A stretch of 64,000 nt of DNA from NCBI RefSeq assembly GCF_003144315.1, contig NZ_MPDK01000009.1, positions 1 to 64,000 of the forward strand, read 5' to 3'. This document shows, in pieces, positions 29,012-36,319 of this stretch. Position 1 is the stretch's first letter; each line of letters opens with the position of its first letter. The notes under the pieces were generated by a model. It saw only the letters and a list, made by a program, of their open reading frames with translations, was not told the DNA's origin and searched no databases. This DNA comes from Sulfoacidibacillus thermotolerans. Its GTDB lineage: Bacteria > Bacillota > Bacilli > Alicyclobacillales > SLC66. The translations under genes were made by a program, and so were the position numbers.

Positions 29012-29962
29012 CTAACTTGGCAAGCGTTCTGCAACGCGCAGTTTCGCCGACCGCGCGCGCGGATTGCGCGCAATCTCCGCTTCTGTCGGCACGACAGCTT
29101 TTTTTGTGATAATACGCAATGTCGCTTGGTGATGGCATACACATTGCGGAAAATGCGGGGGACACACACAGTCTTTAGCGTATTGAGAGAAAAAACGTTT
29201 AACTAAGCGATCTTCGAGAGAATGAAACGTAATAAATCCGACGCGCCCACCAGGTGCTAATAGTTGCGGCACTTTACTTAGCAGTTCCTCTAGCGCTGCC
29301 ATCTCTTCATTCACTGCGATGCGCAATGCCTGAAAGACGCGCTTTGCCGGATGTGGACCTTCCTTACGCGCCGCTGCGGGGATCGCAGCCTTAATGATGG
29401 AAACAAGCTGTTCTGTCGTTACAATCTCCTGAATTTGCCGCTGCGCAACGATAAACTGGGCAATGCGTTTCGCCCACCGCTCTTCGCCATAGTCAAAAAA
29501 TAAATCTGCTAATTCACGTTCTGAGCATGTATTCACCAATTCCCGAGCGGTCAAAGATTGTCTGTGATCCATACGCATATCAAGCGGTGCGTCTTGCTGA
29601 TAAGAAAATCCACGCCACGCATCGTCGAGTTGTGGGGATGAAACGCCAAGATCACAGAGAATCCCTTGAACTTTTGGCATCCCCATTTGCAACAAGTAGT
29701 GATCCATGCGTCGAAAGTTATCGCGTACCAAGACCAAGCGATCCCCATAGTGAGCACGCCATTCATTTGCATATTCAATTGCTTGCTGATCCTGATCAAA
29801 TGCAATCACGCGACCGTTTGGCGCACATGCATCAAGCAAAGCCCGCGTATGGCCCCCTGCACCGAGCGTCCCATCGACGTAAATTCCGTCTGCACTTCTG
29901 CACAGTGCCTCTACTGCTTCGTTTTGCAACACAGTATGATGAACAAAACCCTCACTGGACAA
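29012..29962 (-). CDS. rsmH: 16S rRNA (cytosine-1402-N4)-methyltransferase
   Basis: SAM-dependent enzyme modifying C1402 of 16S rRNA. SAM motif YVDGTLGAGGHTRALL, FDQDQQAIEYA, GILCDLGVSSPQLD, ARGFSYQQDAPLDMRMD and FQALRIAVNEE are all family hallmarks; the end has ITFHSLEDRLVKRFF. AGGAGG abuts an ATG (29971) but is correctly spaced for TTG at 29962, which also gives the expected N-terminus. Second gene of the dcw unit. Confidence 0.94.
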   Translation of the reverse strand: MSSEGFVHHTVLQNEAVEALCRSADGIYVDGTLGAGGHTRALLDACAPNGRVIAFDQDQQAIEYANEWRAHYGDRLVLVRDNFRRMDHYLLQMGMPKVQGILCDLGVSSPQLDDAWRGFSYQQDAPLDMRMDHRQSLTARELVNTCSERELADLFFDYGEERWAKRIAQFIVAQRQIQEIVTTEQLVSIIKAAIPAAARKEGPHPAKRVFQALRIAVNEEMAALEELLSKVPQLLAPGGRVGFITFHSLEDRLVKRFFSQYAKDCVCPPHFPQCVCHHQATLRIITKKAVVPTEAEIARNPRARSAKLRVAERLPS

Positions 29963-29998
29963 AAAATACATCCTCCTCAAATTGCATAGCCTGTAGAT

Positions 29999-30430
29999 TT
30001 AGAGATCTAGATCGACAAGCCCGCTTGCCAGATCACTAAATTGGTCTTCGGCATCTGAGGTATAGGATTTCCATGTCTCAAGATCCCAAATCTCGACGCG
30101 CGCGCCTACTCCGATGACCACACAATCACGAGCAATGTGCGCATAATCACGCAGGTTCATCGGCAATAGCACCCGCCCTTGTTTATCCAATTCAGATTCT
30201 GCCGCACCACTGAAAAAAAAGCGCATAAATTGCCGCGCATCTGCCCTTGATAATGGCATAGCCCGCAACTTCGCTTCTAATGCCTCCCAGTCCTTGCGCG
30301 GATAGACAAACAAACAGTGGTCAAGACCACGGGTGATCACAAAAGAGGTTCCTAATTCTTCGCGGAATTTTGCAGGAATCGTAATGCGCCCTTTGTCATC
30401 TAGCGCATGTTGATATTCGCCCATGAACAC
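29999..30430 (-). CDS. mraZ: Transcriptional regulator MraZ
   Basis: Double AbrB/MazE-like DNA-binding protein that controls the dcw operon. First repeat YQHALDDKGRITIPAKFRE, second FFSGAAESELDKQGRVLLP, each with the conserved DxKGR core. 143 residues. GGGTGA and homology (MFMGEYQH in B. subtilis) favour GTG at 30430 over ATG at 30436. It heads the cluster and is preceded by its likely operator. Confidence 0.95.
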   Translation of the reverse strand: MFMGEYQHALDDKGRITIPAKFREELGTSFVITRGLDHCLFVYPRKDWEALEAKLRAMPLSRADARQFMRFFFSGAAESELDKQGRVLLPMNLRDYAHIARDCVVIGVGARVEIWDLETWKSYTSDAEDQFSDLASGLVDLDL

Positions 30431-30440
30431 GAGCATTCAC

Positions 30441-30512
30441 CCACTTTTCCTGCAGAATTCCCCACTTTAAACCACTTTCCACCACTTATACGGTATAATT
30501 CGCTCCGATCAA
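30441..30512 (-). promoter_or_regulatory. mraZ promoter with MraZ boxes
   Basis: Minus-strand AAGTGG occurs at 30482-30487, 30472-30477, 30462-30467 and 30441-30446, the first three exactly 10 bases apart. MraZ is known to bind tandem GTGG/AAAGTG-type repeats ahead of its own gene. TTGATC (30507-30512) and TATAAG (30485-30490) with a 16-base spacer form a promoter whose -10 overlaps the first box, so binding should repress it. Confidence 0.7.
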
Positions 30513-30513
30513 C

Positions 30514-30552
30514 AAAAATCCTGCCTCCTTTAGCTGGGAGACAGGATTTTTT
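30514..30552 (-). terminator. Terminator after bshC
   Basis: AAAAATCCTG ... CAGGATTTTTT hairpin with inner CTCC/GGAG pairing, T-rich on both strands, between the bshC stop and the mraZ promoter. It separates the bshC unit from the dcw cluster. Confidence 0.8.
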
Positions 30553-30579
30553 ATTTGGATAATATGGTTTATGCACCCA

Positions 30580-32211
30580 TCAGAAACGGATGTACGTCAT
30601 CAAGAGCGGGGAATACTCAAGCTCTAGCAAAGCAGTTATCCATGAGATTCCGTACTTTGAAAATAAAGAAAGCGGCGACAGAATTCGTTCTTGTTCCGAC
30701 AGTGCAGGTCGCAACCAAGAAGACAGAACGGTTGCTAAGTACGCTGTTTCTTTATTTTTTCGTTCAAGAGCTTGCAAACTACGATTTTCAAGATGCCTCA
30801 AACTGCGCGTCATCATTTCTTTTGCGCGTTCCAAGGAGGCGCGTAAAGTCACATCAATCCCTAGAAAATACGCTTCACGATCGAGCAGGGCTTTTCGCAT
30901 CCACTGCTCCATTTCACGCATCACAGTATCAAGTGACGGCGACAAATCGCGAACAAGCGATTCTTTTAGCAAATTGCGCTTTAACCCATCCTCTAGCGTC
31001 ACACCTAAATGTTCGAGTGCCCGAGTCACAGCAGTTGGCAAAGCTGTGACTCGCATACGCAACTGCAAAATGGGAAGATGCCTTCCAGCCTCTGCAAAAA
31101 CTTCTTTTAGCATTCCATGATACGCAATTTCCGCTGGTCCTCCTACATACGCTAAGACCGGCAGTAAAAAATCTTGAACCACGGGGCGGTACAAAACCCC
31201 CGAAGAAAAATCAGAAGGTTGTTCTTGTAAGCGCAGCAACAACTCTTCTTTTGTAAAATATTGTTCCGTATCGCGTAAGACGAACCGATCCGGTTGGAAA
31301 CGATCCACATCAAGCGCATAGCGTCGACCTTTATCGACAATAAACAACAAAGAATGATCAGGATGAAGTTCCACTTGTGGGGCAAACCCGCGTTTTGTGA
31401 GCGCCTCCGCTCCTGATTGCGCGGCACGCATATAACCGTAAGGATTTTTGATCACGCGAGCAAACGCATCTTTAACCAAACGCCTGAATGTAGGATAGAT
31501 TGGATTTAAAAATAGGATTGGCACATCTTTTAAGAATCGCGCCATCAATCGGGCAAACGCATCTCCCATGTTCGTCGCACCCCGATAGGAAAAATCCAGA
31601 TCTTCTAATAGTTGAGATTTATACATTCCTTCAGGAAGTTCTACAGCCAGTTGCGCCAGCAATTTGTCAAGTTCCGTGTCAGAAATCGCATAAAGTCCGA
31701 TGGGAACTCGCCCCACAGGTCGTTCATGTAGACGCACGCGGGCAATTTTTGCATCTTTGTCTACATAATAAGCAGAGGCAACTTCATCAAAATCATGATC
31801 TTCTGCGGCAATCCAAAACACGGGTACCACTGGCCGACACATGACCTCTTCATAGTGCTTCGCTAGCGCAACTGCAGATACCGCTTTGTAGACTGTATAA
31901 AGCGGACCCGAAAAAAGACCTGCTTGTTGACCCGTAACCACCGTCATACAGCGATCATCAGAAAGTTTATCTAGCAACAACTGACTCGCTTCATTGAGCA
32001 AATTCTGCTCCTTTGCATAGTCAGTGAGCGCAGCGACGAGCGCTTTGCGATGCGCGTGATCAAACAGGTGATCGATCGTATGACATCGCCGTTTTACTGC
32101 ATCAGCTTGCTGCGGTGCAAACTCAAATCGATCGCGAATCCGTGGATCGCCCTGCAGATACGCATCCGTGAGCGCATTACCTGTTAACCTCTCCGTTTGC
32201 CAGATCTCCAT
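30580..32211 (-). CDS. bshC: Bacillithiol synthase BshC (putative cysteine-adding enzyme)
   Basis: Last enzyme of bacillithiol synthesis, adding cysteine to GlcN-malate. Family blocks: VVTGQQAGLFSGPLYTVYKA near residue 90, VFWIAAEDHDFDEVAS and VLAYVGGPAEIAYHG. A C-terminal coiled coil (residues about 440-500) is typical. 543 residues, the usual length. In many Bacilli bshC lies next to the dcw cluster, as here. Bacillithiol is the main low-molecular thiol of Bacillales. Confidence 0.93.
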   Translation of the reverse strand: MEIWQTERLTGNALTDAYLQGDPRIRDRFEFAPQQADAVKRRCHTIDHLFDHAHRKALVAALTDYAKEQNLLNEASQLLLDKLSDDRCMTVVTGQQAGLFSGPLYTVYKAVSAVALAKHYEEVMCRPVVPVFWIAAEDHDFDEVASAYYVDKDAKIARVRLHERPVGRVPIGLYAISDTELDKLLAQLAVELPEGMYKSQLLEDLDFSYRGATNMGDAFARLMARFLKDVPILFLNPIYPTFRRLVKDAFARVIKNPYGYMRAAQSGAEALTKRGFAPQVELHPDHSLLFIVDKGRRYALDVDRFQPDRFVLRDTEQYFTKEELLLRLQEQPSDFSSGVLYRPVVQDFLLPVLAYVGGPAEIAYHGMLKEVFAEAGRHLPILQLRMRVTALPTAVTRALEHLGVTLEDGLKRNLLKESLVRDLSPSLDTVMREMEQWMRKALLDREAYFLGIDVTLRASLERAKEMMTRSLRHLENRSLQALERKNKETAYLATVLSSWLRPALSEQERILSPLSLFSKYGISWITALLELEYSPLLMTYIRF

Positions 32212-32262
32212 GGTTTCGCGAACCCCTTTGCATCTCTCTCAAAATTGGTTCTTCTTAAACGC

Positions 32263-33282
32263 TTAGCGATATGCGCGTTCGTAAGACTTCGGAACTTCTA
32301 CTTCATATCCTAAACTCTTGGCAGCAGTATGCGCAAAATGTTTGTCACGCAAAAAACCGCGACCAATCGCGACAGCATCTGCCTGTCCGCTGCGCACAAC
32401 ATATTCAGCTAACTTTGGATCATCTAACATTCCCACCGCAATCACCGGGACCGACACAGCTTGTTTGATCATGTTTGCAAACCCGACTTGATACCCAGGA
32501 TACACTTCTGGTACTAAAGGAACATTGCCCCCCGAACTCACATCAAGAACGGTGATACCATGCCGGATGAATTCCTTACAATAGTCGGTCATTTGCCTTT
32601 CATTGTACCCTTGCGGGTGATACTCTGTCGCAGAAACACGGATCCCAACAGGGATTTTATGTGCTACCGCCTCCACCATAGCATCAATAACTTCTAACAC
32701 GAAGCGCAGTCTCCCCTGCTCATTGCCCCCATACTCATCTGTTCGCTGATTGGAGAGCGGAGAAATAAACTCGTGAAGTAAGTAACCGTGTGCAGCATGT
32801 AATTCAATAAAATCAAACCCTGCGTCCACCGCACGTTGTGCAGCTTTTACAAACGCTTCGCGGATTGCTTTTAATCCCTCTCGATCTAGCGCTTGTGGAA
32901 CTGCATAACGATTGCTAAACGCGATCTCAGACGGTGCGACAATCGGACCTGGAATGTCTGCCTTGCGCCCCGCATGCGCGAGTTGAACTCCGATTTTCGT
33001 CCCCTGCAAGTGTGCAAAATCGACAATTTTACGCAATCCCGACTCATGTTCTGGCGCATACAGCCCGACATCATGAACAGAAATCCGCCCCTGTGCAAGT
33101 ACAGCCGTCGCCTCTATAATCATAAGTGCCGCGCCACCAAGCGCCATCGACCCATAATGAACGAGATGCCAATCTGTAACATTTCCAGTCTCTTGTGCTT
33201 GATATTGACACATTGGAGATACAACCACGCGATTTTTCAATGACAACGAACCGATGCTCCACGGATCAAATAGCCCAGGCAT
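32263..33282 (-). CDS. namA: NADPH dehydrogenase, old yellow enzyme family (NamA/YqjM-like)
   Basis: FMN-dependent ene-reductase that reduces activated double bonds in aldehydes, ketones and nitro compounds. The thermophilic-like/YqjM signature VVSPMCQYQA has the Cys25 and Tyr27 that tune the flavin. The substrate His pair is in FIELHAAHGYLLHEFISPLSN. FMN contacts near the end: AVGMLDD and DAVAIGRGFLRD. 339 residues; AAGGAGG precedes the ATG. Apparently a single-gene unit, with bshC 52 bases downstream. Confidence 0.92.
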   Translation of the reverse strand: MPGLFDPWSIGSLSLKNRVVVSPMCQYQAQETGNVTDWHLVHYGSMALGGAALMIIEATAVLAQGRISVHDVGLYAPEHESGLRKIVDFAHLQGTKIGVQLAHAGRKADIPGPIVAPSEIAFSNRYAVPQALDREGLKAIREAFVKAAQRAVDAGFDFIELHAAHGYLLHEFISPLSNQRTDEYGGNEQGRLRFVLEVIDAMVEAVAHKIPVGIRVSATEYHPQGYNERQMTDYCKEFIRHGITVLDVSSGGNVPLVPEVYPGYQVGFANMIKQAVSVPVIAVGMLDDPKLAEYVVRSGQADAVAIGRGFLRDKHFAHTAAKSLGYEVEVPKSYERAYR

Positions 33283-33366: not shown

Positions 33367-33630
33367 TCAAGCATGTCGCTTGTGCTCTCGCACAATCTCC
33401 ATAGCCCGCGCAAGCTCCTGCATCACGTCAACTGCAGCTTGATCTTCCAACATTTTTGCTTTGATATATACCTCCCCTGCCGGACTTGCGCTATATTGCG
33501 GCGGCAAGTGATTCAACGCGATTGCCAAAATATCATTTTGACAGCGCTCGCAGGTACATCCATCGTAACCGCGTTCAATGAGGTTTTGCAAAGCACGGCG
33601 CGCAACATTTTCCATCACATTCGTCAACAT
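33367..33630 (-). CDS. ComFB-like (late competence) protein
   Basis: 87-residue protein with the ComFB signature: NVMENVARRALQNLI, then a Cys cluster DGCTCERCQNDILAIALNHLPPQY and GEVYIKAKMLEDQ. Members bind zinc through these cysteines; some cyanobacterial homologues bind cyclic dinucleotides. No comFA or comFC is nearby. GGGGAG supports ATG 33630 rather than the longer frame from 33705. Confidence 0.85.
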   Translation of the reverse strand: MLTNVMENVARRALQNLIERGYDGCTCERCQNDILAIALNHLPPQYSASPAGEVYIKAKMLEDQAAVDVMQELARAMEIVREHKRHA

Positions 33631-33733
33631 ACACTCTCCCCATTTCGGTTGATTTAGGTAACCGAAGGCAATTTCACAGTACCACAAACAGGTAAAATTG
33701 AGCAACTACCACATTTCTATTTGCCGCAGTGAT

Positions 33734-33784: not shown

Positions 33785-35131
33785 GTGCAAGATGTACATT
33801 GTCTGCGACGCATGCGGATTCGCGTGCGTGGACTAGAAATTGAACAGACGAGAAAGCTCTATCAATCGTTACTACTTATGATCGATGGTGTCGTTTCAAT
33901 CAAAGTCAATTCACTTTCTGGCCGAATGCTGATCATTTATGACGATCGAAAAATTACCAGTTGGCAATTAACCGCGCTCGCAGGTCGTTTAGAAAGTTCA
34001 CCTCATTCCTTATTGTCGGCGAGTCATTATGCACTTCGCAAGCATCAAATGTATTTGATCATTCCACTCGCATTACTTGTGGGACTTCTTGTGAAACGAC
34101 TTATTTCCGGAAAACCAAAGTTTGCTGACAATTTGGTCGCCTATGAATTAGCGACACTCGTCGCAGTTTTTACTGGCTATCCCCAATTGCGTAGATACGT
34201 CAAACGTTTTGCAGACAAAATCGGCACTAGTGATCACTTGTTATTAAGTTCCGCCGCTTTATTTGTCGCTGTGATCCGCGAGTCCTTTCTTGTCATTACC
34301 GCGCTGTATTTGCTAACTTATAATTCCTATCGCAAACGCAATAACACCTTGGTTGCTGCGGCAAAGGCGGGGGAAGTGGTCGCACTCATTGACAGCGAAA
34401 ACCGCGAACCAAAAAATGTACAACAATACGCGGAGATCGTTTCCAAACTGGGGCTTTTACTCGCGCTCAGTTCCCTTTTGATCACGCGCGACCCTTTATT
34501 ATTTAGTACGCTGCTTGTAGCTTTCAACCCGCGTCCCGCCGTAGTAAGCGCGCGTTATGGTCTGAATCACGCGGAAATTTTAACACATGAAGACTGTCGC
34601 TATATTCCCATGCATACCGGAATGGATTTGTATGAATTATTAGACGCCCGGGAAATTGTAATCTTATCTACAAATGACGCCAAAAATCCGCCAAAAATCT
34701 TTCCCCCTTTGGCAGAGTTCGCAAAAATGCATCACATTTCGTCGATTTACACCCTTTCGGTCTCTGAATTTACGGAACCGATTCCTGACGTGAGGGAGCG
34801 CGAACGACATGCAAACCGTCCGATTGAAAAAATCGTATTACTATCGGAAGAAGTCATTTACCCAGCTGTCCATCAAAGACAAGATCATTTGATTTACTTG
34901 CGCCAAAGTCAACAAGCCTTGCTAGAGACTCTGCGCCTTAGTGCGCGTTTGCGAGACAACATCACGCGTAACTTGATCTATACAAGTGTCGTTAGTCTCA
35001 CGCTCACCGCACTCTCCTTGGGACGTGTTCACCCAAATAAAATCAACTTGCTAGCAGATGGATACACCATTGCAAGTCTTGGCTTGGCTGAAAGCAGTAA
35101 ACTGAGCCCAATCGCCACAAATCACCACTAA
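33785..35131 (+). CDS. HMA2-domain, P1B-ATPase-like membrane protein lacking catalytic motifs
   Basis: Residues about 9-70 form a ferredoxin-like heavy-metal-associated domain (RMRIRVRGL...GVVSIKVNSLSGRMLIIYD) without the CxxC metal site. Hydrophobic pairs at about 88-135, 150-180, 220-247 and 396-435 copy the eight-helix plan of P1B-ATPases. Where those pumps have CPC there is NPRP (248-251), and where the phosphorylated DKTGT follows VVLD here IVILSTNDA (291-299) stands. The TGE actuator loop and a recognisable nucleotide domain are missing. About 448 residues against roughly 700 for a working pump. No frameshift or stop is visible, so it looks like a maintained pseudo-enzyme. GTG start after GAGGGGGGA. 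Confidence 0.75.
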   Translation: MQDVHCLRRMRIRVRGLEIEQTRKLYQSLLLMIDGVVSIKVNSLSGRMLIIYDDRKITSWQLTALAGRLESSPHSLLSASHYALRKHQMYLIIPLALLVGLLVKRLISGKPKFADNLVAYELATLVAVFTGYPQLRRYVKRFADKIGTSDHLLLSSAALFVAVIRESFLVITALYLLTYNSYRKRNNTLVAAAKAGEVVALIDSENREPKNVQQYAEIVSKLGLLLALSSLLITRDPLLFSTLLVAFNPRPAVVSARYGLNHAEILTHEDCRYIPMHTGMDLYELLDAREIVILSTNDAKNPPKIFPPLAEFAKMHHISSIYTLSVSEFTEPIPDVRERERHANRPIEKIVLLSEEVIYPAVHQRQDHLIYLRQSQQALLETLRLSARLRDNITRNLIYTSVVSLTLTALSLGRVHPNKINLLADGYTIASLGLAESSKLSPIATNHH

Positions 35132-35160: not shown

Positions 35161-35190
35161 TGAGGCGCAAGGAAGACTCCCTGCGCCTCA
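35161..35190. terminator. Bidirectional terminator
   Basis: Perfect 9-bp stem TGAGGCGCA / TGCGCCTCA with a 12-base loop, between the convergent ends of the pseudo-ATPase gene and the 226-residue protein gene. No strong T-tract. Confidence 0.62.
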
Positions 35191-35207: not shown

Positions 35208-35888
35208 TTAATGATAGGTGCCTAGCTGTGAATCAGATCGGCGAAGTTGGTCTTCTGCGAGATCAATGAAGTGTTCATACTCCGGTTTAAATTCAGCTCC
35301 GATCTGCTTCACATCATTGGCGAACTGTAAAAGCGCCTGCGTATTTTTTACAGCAAATGCAGGAGGTAAATGAGTTTTTTGAGGTGCGTTGGACGTTGTG
35401 ACCGAGTGCAATCTCGGTAACAAATTTTCCGAAAGACGGTCTTGACGGTGATCATCCACTTGCCCAATTTGGCCAACCTCAACGCTCTGTGCGCGATTTT
35501 CGCCAGCCAATTTTACCCGACGAGCCACTTCCTTTGTCCCTGCGATTACATCGTCTGCGGCGTTTAGCGCTGTAGCAAGTCCACCCACGATCACTCTCCG
35601 AAAGGGTGGGCGCTGTAGATTTTTCTGCTCCTGCCACCCCTCATTTGCAGGCATGGTATTTTCCAAAACAGGTTCATTGTGTGGAATGGTCGGTGACTGT
35701 AACTCAGTAGGCTTTGTCCACTCTTTCATGCGATCACCAAGCGCCATAACTCCAACCGCAGTATTGACTGTCGCTTGGCGAATCAATTTTCGCACAGCGG
35801 GCACCGTGAGCAAAACTGCAACGCCTACGCCAATCCAGCCGATTGGATGATCAAATTTTAATGAACGACCCCAGTCTTTCATCGCCAT
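35208..35888 (-). CDS. Single-helix membrane protein with DUF5132-like N-terminus
   Basis: 226 residues. The first 50 (IGWIGVGVAVLLTVPAVRKL, then amphipathic RQATVNTAVGVMALGDRMKEW) line up with the Gly-rich helix and basic amphipathic segment of the small protein encoded at 36050-36319. A second Gly/Ala-rich amphipathic part lies near residues 97-125 (VIVGGLATALNAADDVIAGTKEVARR). The last 45 residues form a charged helix (FANDVKQIGAEFKPEYEHF). No metal-binding Cys cluster. Not a family I can name; placed with the P1B-like gene by proximity and shared design. AAGGGGGGAACGCA precedes ATG. Confidence 0.65.
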   Translation of the reverse strand: MAMKDWGRSLKFDHPIGWIGVGVAVLLTVPAVRKLIRQATVNTAVGVMALGDRMKEWTKPTELQSPTIPHNEPVLENTMPANEGWQEQKNLQRPPFRRVIVGGLATALNAADDVIAGTKEVARRVKLAGENRAQSVEVGQIGQVDDHRQDRLSENLLPRLHSVTTSNAPQKTHLPPAFAVKNTQALLQFANDVKQIGAEFKPEYEHFIDLAEDQLRRSDSQLGTYH

Positions 35889-36049
35889 TGCGTTCCCCCC
35901 TTTTCACATCCCCTATCACGTAGCATCCCCAAGCAGTAAAAGCGCATGCGAAAAAGTGCTTTCTGACGTATGAATCACTCAAAAACGTGGAACGGTATCA
36001 AATACAGCCACAGTTTATGAAACCGCAGGGGTTGCAGGAGGAAGTCGTT

Positions 36050-36319
36050 GTGAAAAAATCATTTTCAGTTGAAGGAATCGCCATGGGAATTGGTCTTGGT
36101 GTACTCGCAGTCCTCTTAGCTCCAGTCGTAAAAAGACAAATTCGCCCCGCTGGAGAAGCGATCGCGTCTGGAATCGGAGCGCTCGCACAAGGGGCACGCA
36201 AATGGTATGAAGTAACAAAAGAAGAAGTAGAGGATCTATTTGCTGAAGCGCAATTCGAGCGAATGAAACGGTCACTCGATCAAGAAATAGAAGAACCTGT
36301 ACAACCACCCCGTATGTAA
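36050..36319 (+). CDS. DUF5132-like small membrane protein
   Basis: 89 residues: Gly-rich membrane helix (IAMGIGLGVLAVLLAPVV), a basic stretch, then an amphipathic helix ending in EEVEDLFAEAQFE, which matches the DUF5132 pattern as I recall it. DUF5132 and the related DUF1490 (mycobacterial PacL) occur beside P1B-ATPases or HMA2 proteins, where PacL assists metal efflux. The C-tail here has no His, Cys or Asp-rich metal site. GGAGG fits GTG at 36050; the longer frame from 35987 lacks a binding site. Confidence 0.68.
   Translation: MKKSFSVEGIAMGIGLGVLAVLLAPVVKRQIRPAGEAIASGIGALAQGARKWYEVTKEEVEDLFAEAQFERMKRSLDQEIEEPVQPPRM

Follow-up and report, generated by a model that had tools for sequence, protein, structure and literature searches.

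A stand-alone pseudo-P1B-ATPase of Sulfoacidibacillus thermotolerans and its kinship with the dead N-half of two-headed P-type ATPases

A gene of Sulfoacidibacillus thermotolerans encodes what resembles a P1B-type ATPase which has kept its transport scaffold and lost its phosphorylation machinery, and this raises the question of whether such a protein is decaying or selected and, if selected, what it could do. The gene lies in the window, by which we mean the whole 64,000-nucleotide stretch of DNA that was analysed (contig NZ_MPDK01000009.1, positions 1 to 64,000, forward strand). A sequence-only reading had taken the protein to be apparently intact and seemingly selected, and had proposed that it could be a metal sensor, a channel or a partner modulating a true pump. 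Our firm conclusion is that it is almost certainly a free-standing version of the dead P1B module found in two-headed ATPases, so that what had seemed an isolated oddity is instead the detached form of a known module. We give a probability of about one half to its being a non-pumping accessory subunit which would act in trans on a P2-type pump. The features to which we refer are the following (window coordinates):

33785..35131, plus strand: stand-alone pseudo-P1B-ATPase, 448 aa, stop codon in range (ORF reading, alignment and model)
33800..33802, plus strand: Cys6, in 13/13 orthologues and 0/28 other rows having a letter there (alignment)
33803..33997, plus strand: HMA-like domain, residues 7-71, CxxC metal loop absent (sub-threshold PF19991; HMA folds at Z ~10)
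34277..34285, plus strand: Arg165-Glu166-Ser167 in M2, common to live P1B relatives (alignment)
34526..34537, plus strand: NPRP, residues 248-251, replacing the M4 CPC motif (alignment)
34586..34597, plus strand: His268-Glu-Asp-Cys271 directly after M4, with His268 and Cys271 in 13/13 orthologues (alignment)
34667..34681, plus strand: STNDA, residues 295-299, replacing DKTGT and varying within the family (alignment)
35057..35059, plus strand: Asp425 in M6, paired with Arg250 in 26/32 pseudo rows (alignment)
35161..35190, minus strand: terminator-like hairpin of 13 pairs between convergent genes (scores on the minus strand)
35208..35888, minus strand: 226-aa protein, convergent, with an N-terminal membrane segment akin to that of the helper (adjoins the pseudo-ATPase in 12/12 relatives)
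35987..36319, plus strand: 110-aa one-helix helper, DUF5132-like, with a (K/R)EExED..AEAQ motif (neighbour and profile searches)

The frame at 33785-35131 opens with a GTG start and encodes 448 aa with zero internal stops, and a purine-rich run like a ribosome binding site, read directly, lies immediately 5' of it; the clean frame and ribosome binding site reported earlier are both borne out. The terminator which had been credited to the gene does exist as a hairpin, but the strand on which it scores is the minus one, that of the convergent gene. No second copy of the protein was found in its own genome at E 1. MraW, MraZ, BshC and an FMN oxidoreductase gene (window 29012-33282) adjoin the pseudo-ATPase, and a ComFB-like late competence protein is encoded at 33367-33705 on the minus strand (Pfam 71.8 bits; below the NCBIfam cut-off). 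BshC was found nearby, on the opposite side from the 226-aa gene, in the window and in 5/5 loci tested with Pfam. That a bacillithiol synthesis gene sits close to a protein whose two cysteines are invariant could be a coincidence of position.

Pfam gave one match in the 448-aa protein, to HMA_2 (PF19991) at 21.7 bits, under the curated cut-off of 30, and E1-E2_ATPase and Hydrolase were not matched. The HMA_2 match was found at E 0.1 or better in 9/13 orthologues. The absence of CxxC from the HMA-like domain is a reading of the sequence, in which only Cys6 and Cys271 exist. When compared to the PDB, the family profile matched HMA domains (CopZ 6ff2 at E 2.4e-5) and CopA 3j09 (E 0.0073 overall), the latter with a second weak stretch pairing query 359-403 with CopA 632-676, which in our reading spans the passage from the P domain to M5. 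An AlphaFold2 model was built from 11 sequences, i.e. the window protein and those from 10 named loci (one Ferroacidibacillus organovorans and nine MAGs), and had a mean pLDDT of 80.9 and a pTM of 0.78. The group to which these belong is acidophilic. The top five Foldseek matches of the model were P1B ATPases, only rank 1 of 283 reaching E 0.001, and unrelated receptors appeared from rank 6 on with lower probability. VIA-align gave Z 15.4 to HMA4 8q74 (rmsd 4.7 over 291 residues, model 78-443), 14.7 to KdpB, 12.6 to CopA 3rfu, 12.1 to ZntA 4umv and ~10 for the HMA part alone; helical bundles may score this high without kinship, but here the first 23 rows were all P-type ATPases. The model is therefore of the predicted kind, with an N-terminal HMA-like domain and a P1B membrane fold and, in our reading of its secondary structure, eight membrane helices, as had been suggested before any structure was predicted.

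To the 13 stand-alone orthologues we aligned 14 fused N-halves, 5 unfused relatives and 10 live P1B ATPases, with the fused rows cut ahead of the live half for motif counts. The earlier placements of NPRP for CPC and STNDA for DKTGT are right: NPRP shares a column with the CPC/TPS/SPR-type motifs of the 10 live P1B ATPases, and AREIVILST with their VDTVLFDKT-like motifs. DKTGT was present in 10/10 live rows and absent in 32/32 pseudo rows, including all 13 orthologues, in which the M4 metal motif was NPR or SPR in place of CPC-type motifs. It should be noted that the live relative L081 carries SPRA, so that Arg alone is no proof of transport loss. Since all 12 same-locus relatives lack DKTGT and the model resembles P-type ATPases, we found neither a degradation confined to this strain nor an unlike structure.

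The domains reported missing from the sequence, the TGE loop and the nucleotide domain, are indeed gone. The distance between the M2 Glu and the M4 Pro is 82 residues in the window protein, 70-90 in 32/32 pseudo rows and 172-184 in 10/10 live P1B ATPases, which means that all pseudo forms have lost the A domain; this loop length was used as the A-domain measure because TGES/TGEP strings were flagged in only 3/10 live P1B ATPases. From M4 to M5 the window protein has 135 residues, as against 288-291 in 10/10 live P1B ATPases. This span was 104-140 in 11/13 stand-alone orthologues, 55-56 in the remaining two (one genus), 250-285 in 18/19 pseudo forms outside the stand-alone family and 159 in the other (L054), from which it follows that the stand-alone family lost the N domain and that one genus lost the P-domain remnant as well. 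In that genus the 226-aa-type neighbour is also shortened (120-136 aa), and this represents one event only. Read as a series, the sequences show a stepwise loss, in which the A domain went in all pseudo forms, followed by the N domain and finally the P-domain remnant, and so reveal which pump parts are dispensable while something selected stays.

We compared the protein to other genomes to determine how far this module is spread. The stand-alone pseudo-ATPase was found in 13/18 genomes of the family (own genome counted), at 35-64% identity. Outside the family, the best matches (E down to 8.6e-23) were the N-terminal part of P-type ATPases of 1428-1661 aa and proteins of 630-700 aa. In the two-headed ATPase L054 the order of Pfam domains was HMA_2, a domain-free stretch, Cation_ATPase_N, E1-E2_ATPase, Hydrolase and Cation_ATPase_C. 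A broader profile gave clear matches, all at or below E 7.8e-65, in 37 of the class's 398 genomes (the following match, at 3.8e-39, was of live-P1B size), including 26 with a frame of two-headed length and 4 with an unfused 639-720-aa frame (two also fused), the remainder being 8 stand-alone family members and 1 fragment; two candidates were scored per genome and fused or unfused was called from frame length, the live half being read directly only in L054, L055, L057, L137, L138, L139 and L145. A 228-aa frame at G708:C4:595981-596637 which matches only part of the dead module is possibly a true remnant, unlike the genes found in other genomes, which are intact. A search of plasmids with the fused N-half L138 gave nothing at 1e-10.

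The stand-alone family formed one clade in the tree (100/99) and shares its ancestry with fused dead halves, as a 28-row clade (100/99) consists of this family, 11 fused halves and 4 unfused proteins. Nested among the fused halves are three unfused proteins from other families, and the starred branches require at least 3 changes for the unfused state and at least 5 for the fused state, indicating that the module has repeatedly joined and left live pumps. The fused halves L074 and L075 fall weakly beside live P1B ATPases and L076 and L083 branch apart, and hence the tree does not establish that deadness arose only once. Dead P-type proteins of a second kind, P2-type and 922-1046 aa long, were observed at L056:5562-8621, L058:9174-11942, L059:9675-12446 and L060:1743-4883; in these proteins DKTGT is replaced (LSEQA, LTDHG etc.) and TGES and TGD are lost, and they share clusters with live HMA_2-P2 pumps and unfused dead P1B proteins (Pfam on three of the four).

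Two small genes accompany the pseudo-ATPase. The 226-aa protein has a long variable tail after its membrane segment. Relatives of the one-helix helper were found in 29/29 genomes carrying the dead module, beside it in each (a count which drops 18/47 listed genomes with E 0.001 or worse), and in 1/122 other genomes, of 151 searched; as the helper profile was built partly from module-adjacent genes and the genomes are non-independent, this co-occurrence is not wholly independent and its very small p-value overstates the case. The sole helper-positive non-carrier was G015 (65% complete), where the helper lies beside an HMA_2-P2 pump. The gap between helper and module was 0.5-1.4 kb in the family, <0.2 kb in 11 other genomes and ~2.5 kb from the N-half in five fused cases, where the live half would account for the intervening sequence. 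Both forms are present in G091 and G147, and there the helper match was beside the unfused module only and the fused genes were without one. Helper-like proteins also flank 4/4 live P1B pumps examined, and the helper is thus not specific to the dead module. DUF5132 (PF17195) was matched weakly by 10/19 aligned helpers at E 1 or better (best 2.4e-5), with the window copy unmatched, and we found no mention of DUF5132 in the open-licence PMC papers searched. PADLOC gave no match at E 0.01 for the pseudo-ATPase and its two neighbours, and an anti-phage defence role was rejected on this null.

We also examined which pump the module could serve. Its own genome has seven E1-E2_ATPase matches, and the candidate partner among its pumps is G000:C70, a separate pump of 1055 aa which begins with a sub-threshold HMA_2-like part (18.5 bits) and continues as a live P2 body containing TGES and DKTGT; it is on a different contig from the 448-aa ORF and unlinked to it. 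This pump is kin to the fused live halves: in a tree of P2 pumps it fell in an 18-row clade (SH-aLRT 99) with 8 family relatives, 6 fused live halves and 3 HMA_2-P2 pumps from clusters, while 8 general P2A pumps lay outside it (98), one of the five chosen HMA_2-P2 loci (L060) having been dropped at the motif filter and the L142 branch being very long. Unfused dead modules were likewise found near live HMA_2-P2 pumps in G091, G107, G121, G147 and G380. The best NCBIfam names for the G000:C70 pump were Ca2+-ATPases, below cut-offs. A second copy of the helper lies beside this pump, along with a VTT protein, a Na/Ca exchanger and TerC, so that its cargo is probably Ca2+ or Mn2+. The cluster, at L041:6443-12756 and in the order live HMA_2-P2 pump, helper copy, Na/Ca exchanger, VTT protein and TerC, has the look of an efflux island for Ca2+ or Mn2+, and its gene order recurs, judged by frame sizes, in G001, G008 and G015 (L140, L141 and L142).

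Within the family the association of module and pump was not significant, with the pump in 8/13 carriers vs 1/5 non-carriers (p 0.29). We rejected a strict dependence on an HMA_2-P2 pump on the basis of this value and of the 5/13 carriers lacking such a pump (G002, G003, G004, G011 and G014; 83-98% complete), where the module may have a different pump as its partner or no partner at all.

These results can be weighed against other explanations. A decaying pseudogene or an assembly artefact might be suspected from the lost catalytic motifs, and from the two genomes of one genus which are also without the P-domain remnant, but the frames are intact at the same locus in 13 genomes and have 43 invariant columns. 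By NG86, dN/dS was 0.185 for the pair G008/G014 and 0.096 for G013/G006 (YN00: 0.244 and 0.131), values which rest on two close pairs, synonymous sites being saturated between the window gene and its two nearest relatives. For comparison, two flanking genes had 0.085 and 0.090 in G008/G014, and BshC had 0.085 in G013/G006; the G008/G014 pseudo-ATPase is therefore about twice as relaxed as its neighbour genes, and still clearly constrained. With low dN/dS and same-locus orthologues we ruled out decay or artefact, to which we would assign next to no probability, and agree with the sequence-only reading that the gene is under selection. A passive ion channel, or a leak left from the old transport pathway, would suit the retained membrane scaffold and M2 Arg-Glu-Ser. 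It is disfavoured by the conserved Arg and Asp which stand at former metal-ligand positions, together in 26/32 pseudo rows (the other six having R/N, S/D, S/N, V/N, A/K and Q/D) and in no live row, 4/10 of which are gapped there. By eye, the M6 His-Asn of three live relatives (C-termini of L133-L135) is Ala-Asp425 in the window protein. A salt bridge between Arg250 and Asp425 may occupy the place where the metal sat, a closed bridge being likelier than a pore, and we consider a channel very improbable.

The adjoining one-helix helpers also bring to mind an organiser of membrane platforms which, like PacL, would gather several different pumps rather than one. Passages of two papers on PacL proteins, which hold pumps within such platforms, provide a precedent (PMC9374683, PMC13043812), and carriers without an HMA_2-P2 pump would fit; however, the link to PacL by sequence is limited to weak matches of the helpers to PacL-type families (DUF1490 in 2/19, DUF6110 in 1/19) and the pattern of fusions indicates one pump kind, so this role appears rather unlikely. 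More can be said for a free-standing metal or thiol sensor, in which a ligand at a putative Cys6/His268/Cys271 site shared by the HMA-like domain and the post-M4 stalk would shift the helix bundle, and the shift would pass to the two one-helix neighbours, the pump being optional. Cys6, His268 and Cys271 are invariant in 13/13 orthologues, neither the window protein nor three other members (L043, L046 and L052) have any cysteine besides Cys6 and Cys271, and the other 29 rows of the alignment have Cys at neither column (L086 being gapped at column 6). The set has thus been gained in the stand-alone clade, a gain which hints at a metal or thiol sensor. Both the helper and the 226-aa neighbour remain with the pseudo-ATPase, and five carriers lack an HMA_2-P2 pump. 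Against this, His is also present at column 268 in one outside row (L057) and the wider family indicates a pump partner; a sensor role is possible, and we hold it as a minority view. A fuller version is slightly more doubtful again: that a dead pump half turned independent receptor, having also lost its N domain, gained these three residues to link the HMA-like domain to the post-M4 stalk, sense metal or thiol state and control P-type pumps in trans with its two one-helix neighbours.

Because other genomes have this module fused to a live pump, the pump partner is the likeliest of the three functions which had been proposed, a ranking that we infer from the relatives. For an accessory subunit of a P2-type pump, we suggest that the detached and trimmed dead N-half of a two-headed ATPase persists as a separate gene, and that the pseudo-ATPase and the DUF5132-like helper would dock onto a live P2-type pump, for which G000:C70 is the candidate in this genome. 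Such docking may tune the assembly or activity of the pump. The novelty lies in a module that is free and trimmed and carries its own Cys/His set; the dead module itself has reportedly been described before. A lineage in which the module is a free gene allows the role of the large N-half of two-headed P-type ATPases to be tested by deletion and add-back.

Compared to known systems, the window protein is similar to live HMA_2-type P1B ATPases (DKTGT, loci L072-L086) in its HMA-like domain, M2 Arg-Glu-Ser and membrane plan, but it is without their A domain, N domain, DKTGT and metal ligands. It is closer to the unfused dead P1B proteins of 613-678 aa (L056, L058, L059, L060 and L144), which likewise lack the A domain and DKTGT, have an adjoining helper and sit beside live HMA_2-P2 pumps; unlike the stand-alone members, these keep the N domain (M4-M5 271-285 vs 104-140 in 11/13) and are without Cys6, His268 and Cys271. 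The PacL, DUF1490 and DUF6110 helpers of P-type ATPases are, in the part of the source concerned, likewise small one-helix proteins encoded adjacently (PMC9374683), whereas the present helper is nearest, weakly, to DUF5132 and a metal-binding tail was not recognised in it. Searches of open-licence PMC papers gave no title or abstract dealing with a dead P-type ATPase that stands alone. Chan et al. in 2010 reportedly described FUPA24 ATPases as fusions of a type I with a type II gene in which the type II part alone stayed functional. A large N-terminal segment is described in a passage of one paper (PMC3573892), and a 2023 review, in the section concerned, treats CtpI and CtpH as uncharacterised and perhaps their own family (PMC10654040). 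The two-headed ATPases of Bacillota share the plan of FUPA24 (TC 3.A.3.24; e.g. mycobacterial CtpH and CtpI, known here from literature alone), i.e. a dead P1B-like N-half and a live P2-type half, whereas in the family described here the dead half is a separate gene (448 aa in the window) which has lost its N domain and has its own Cys/His set.
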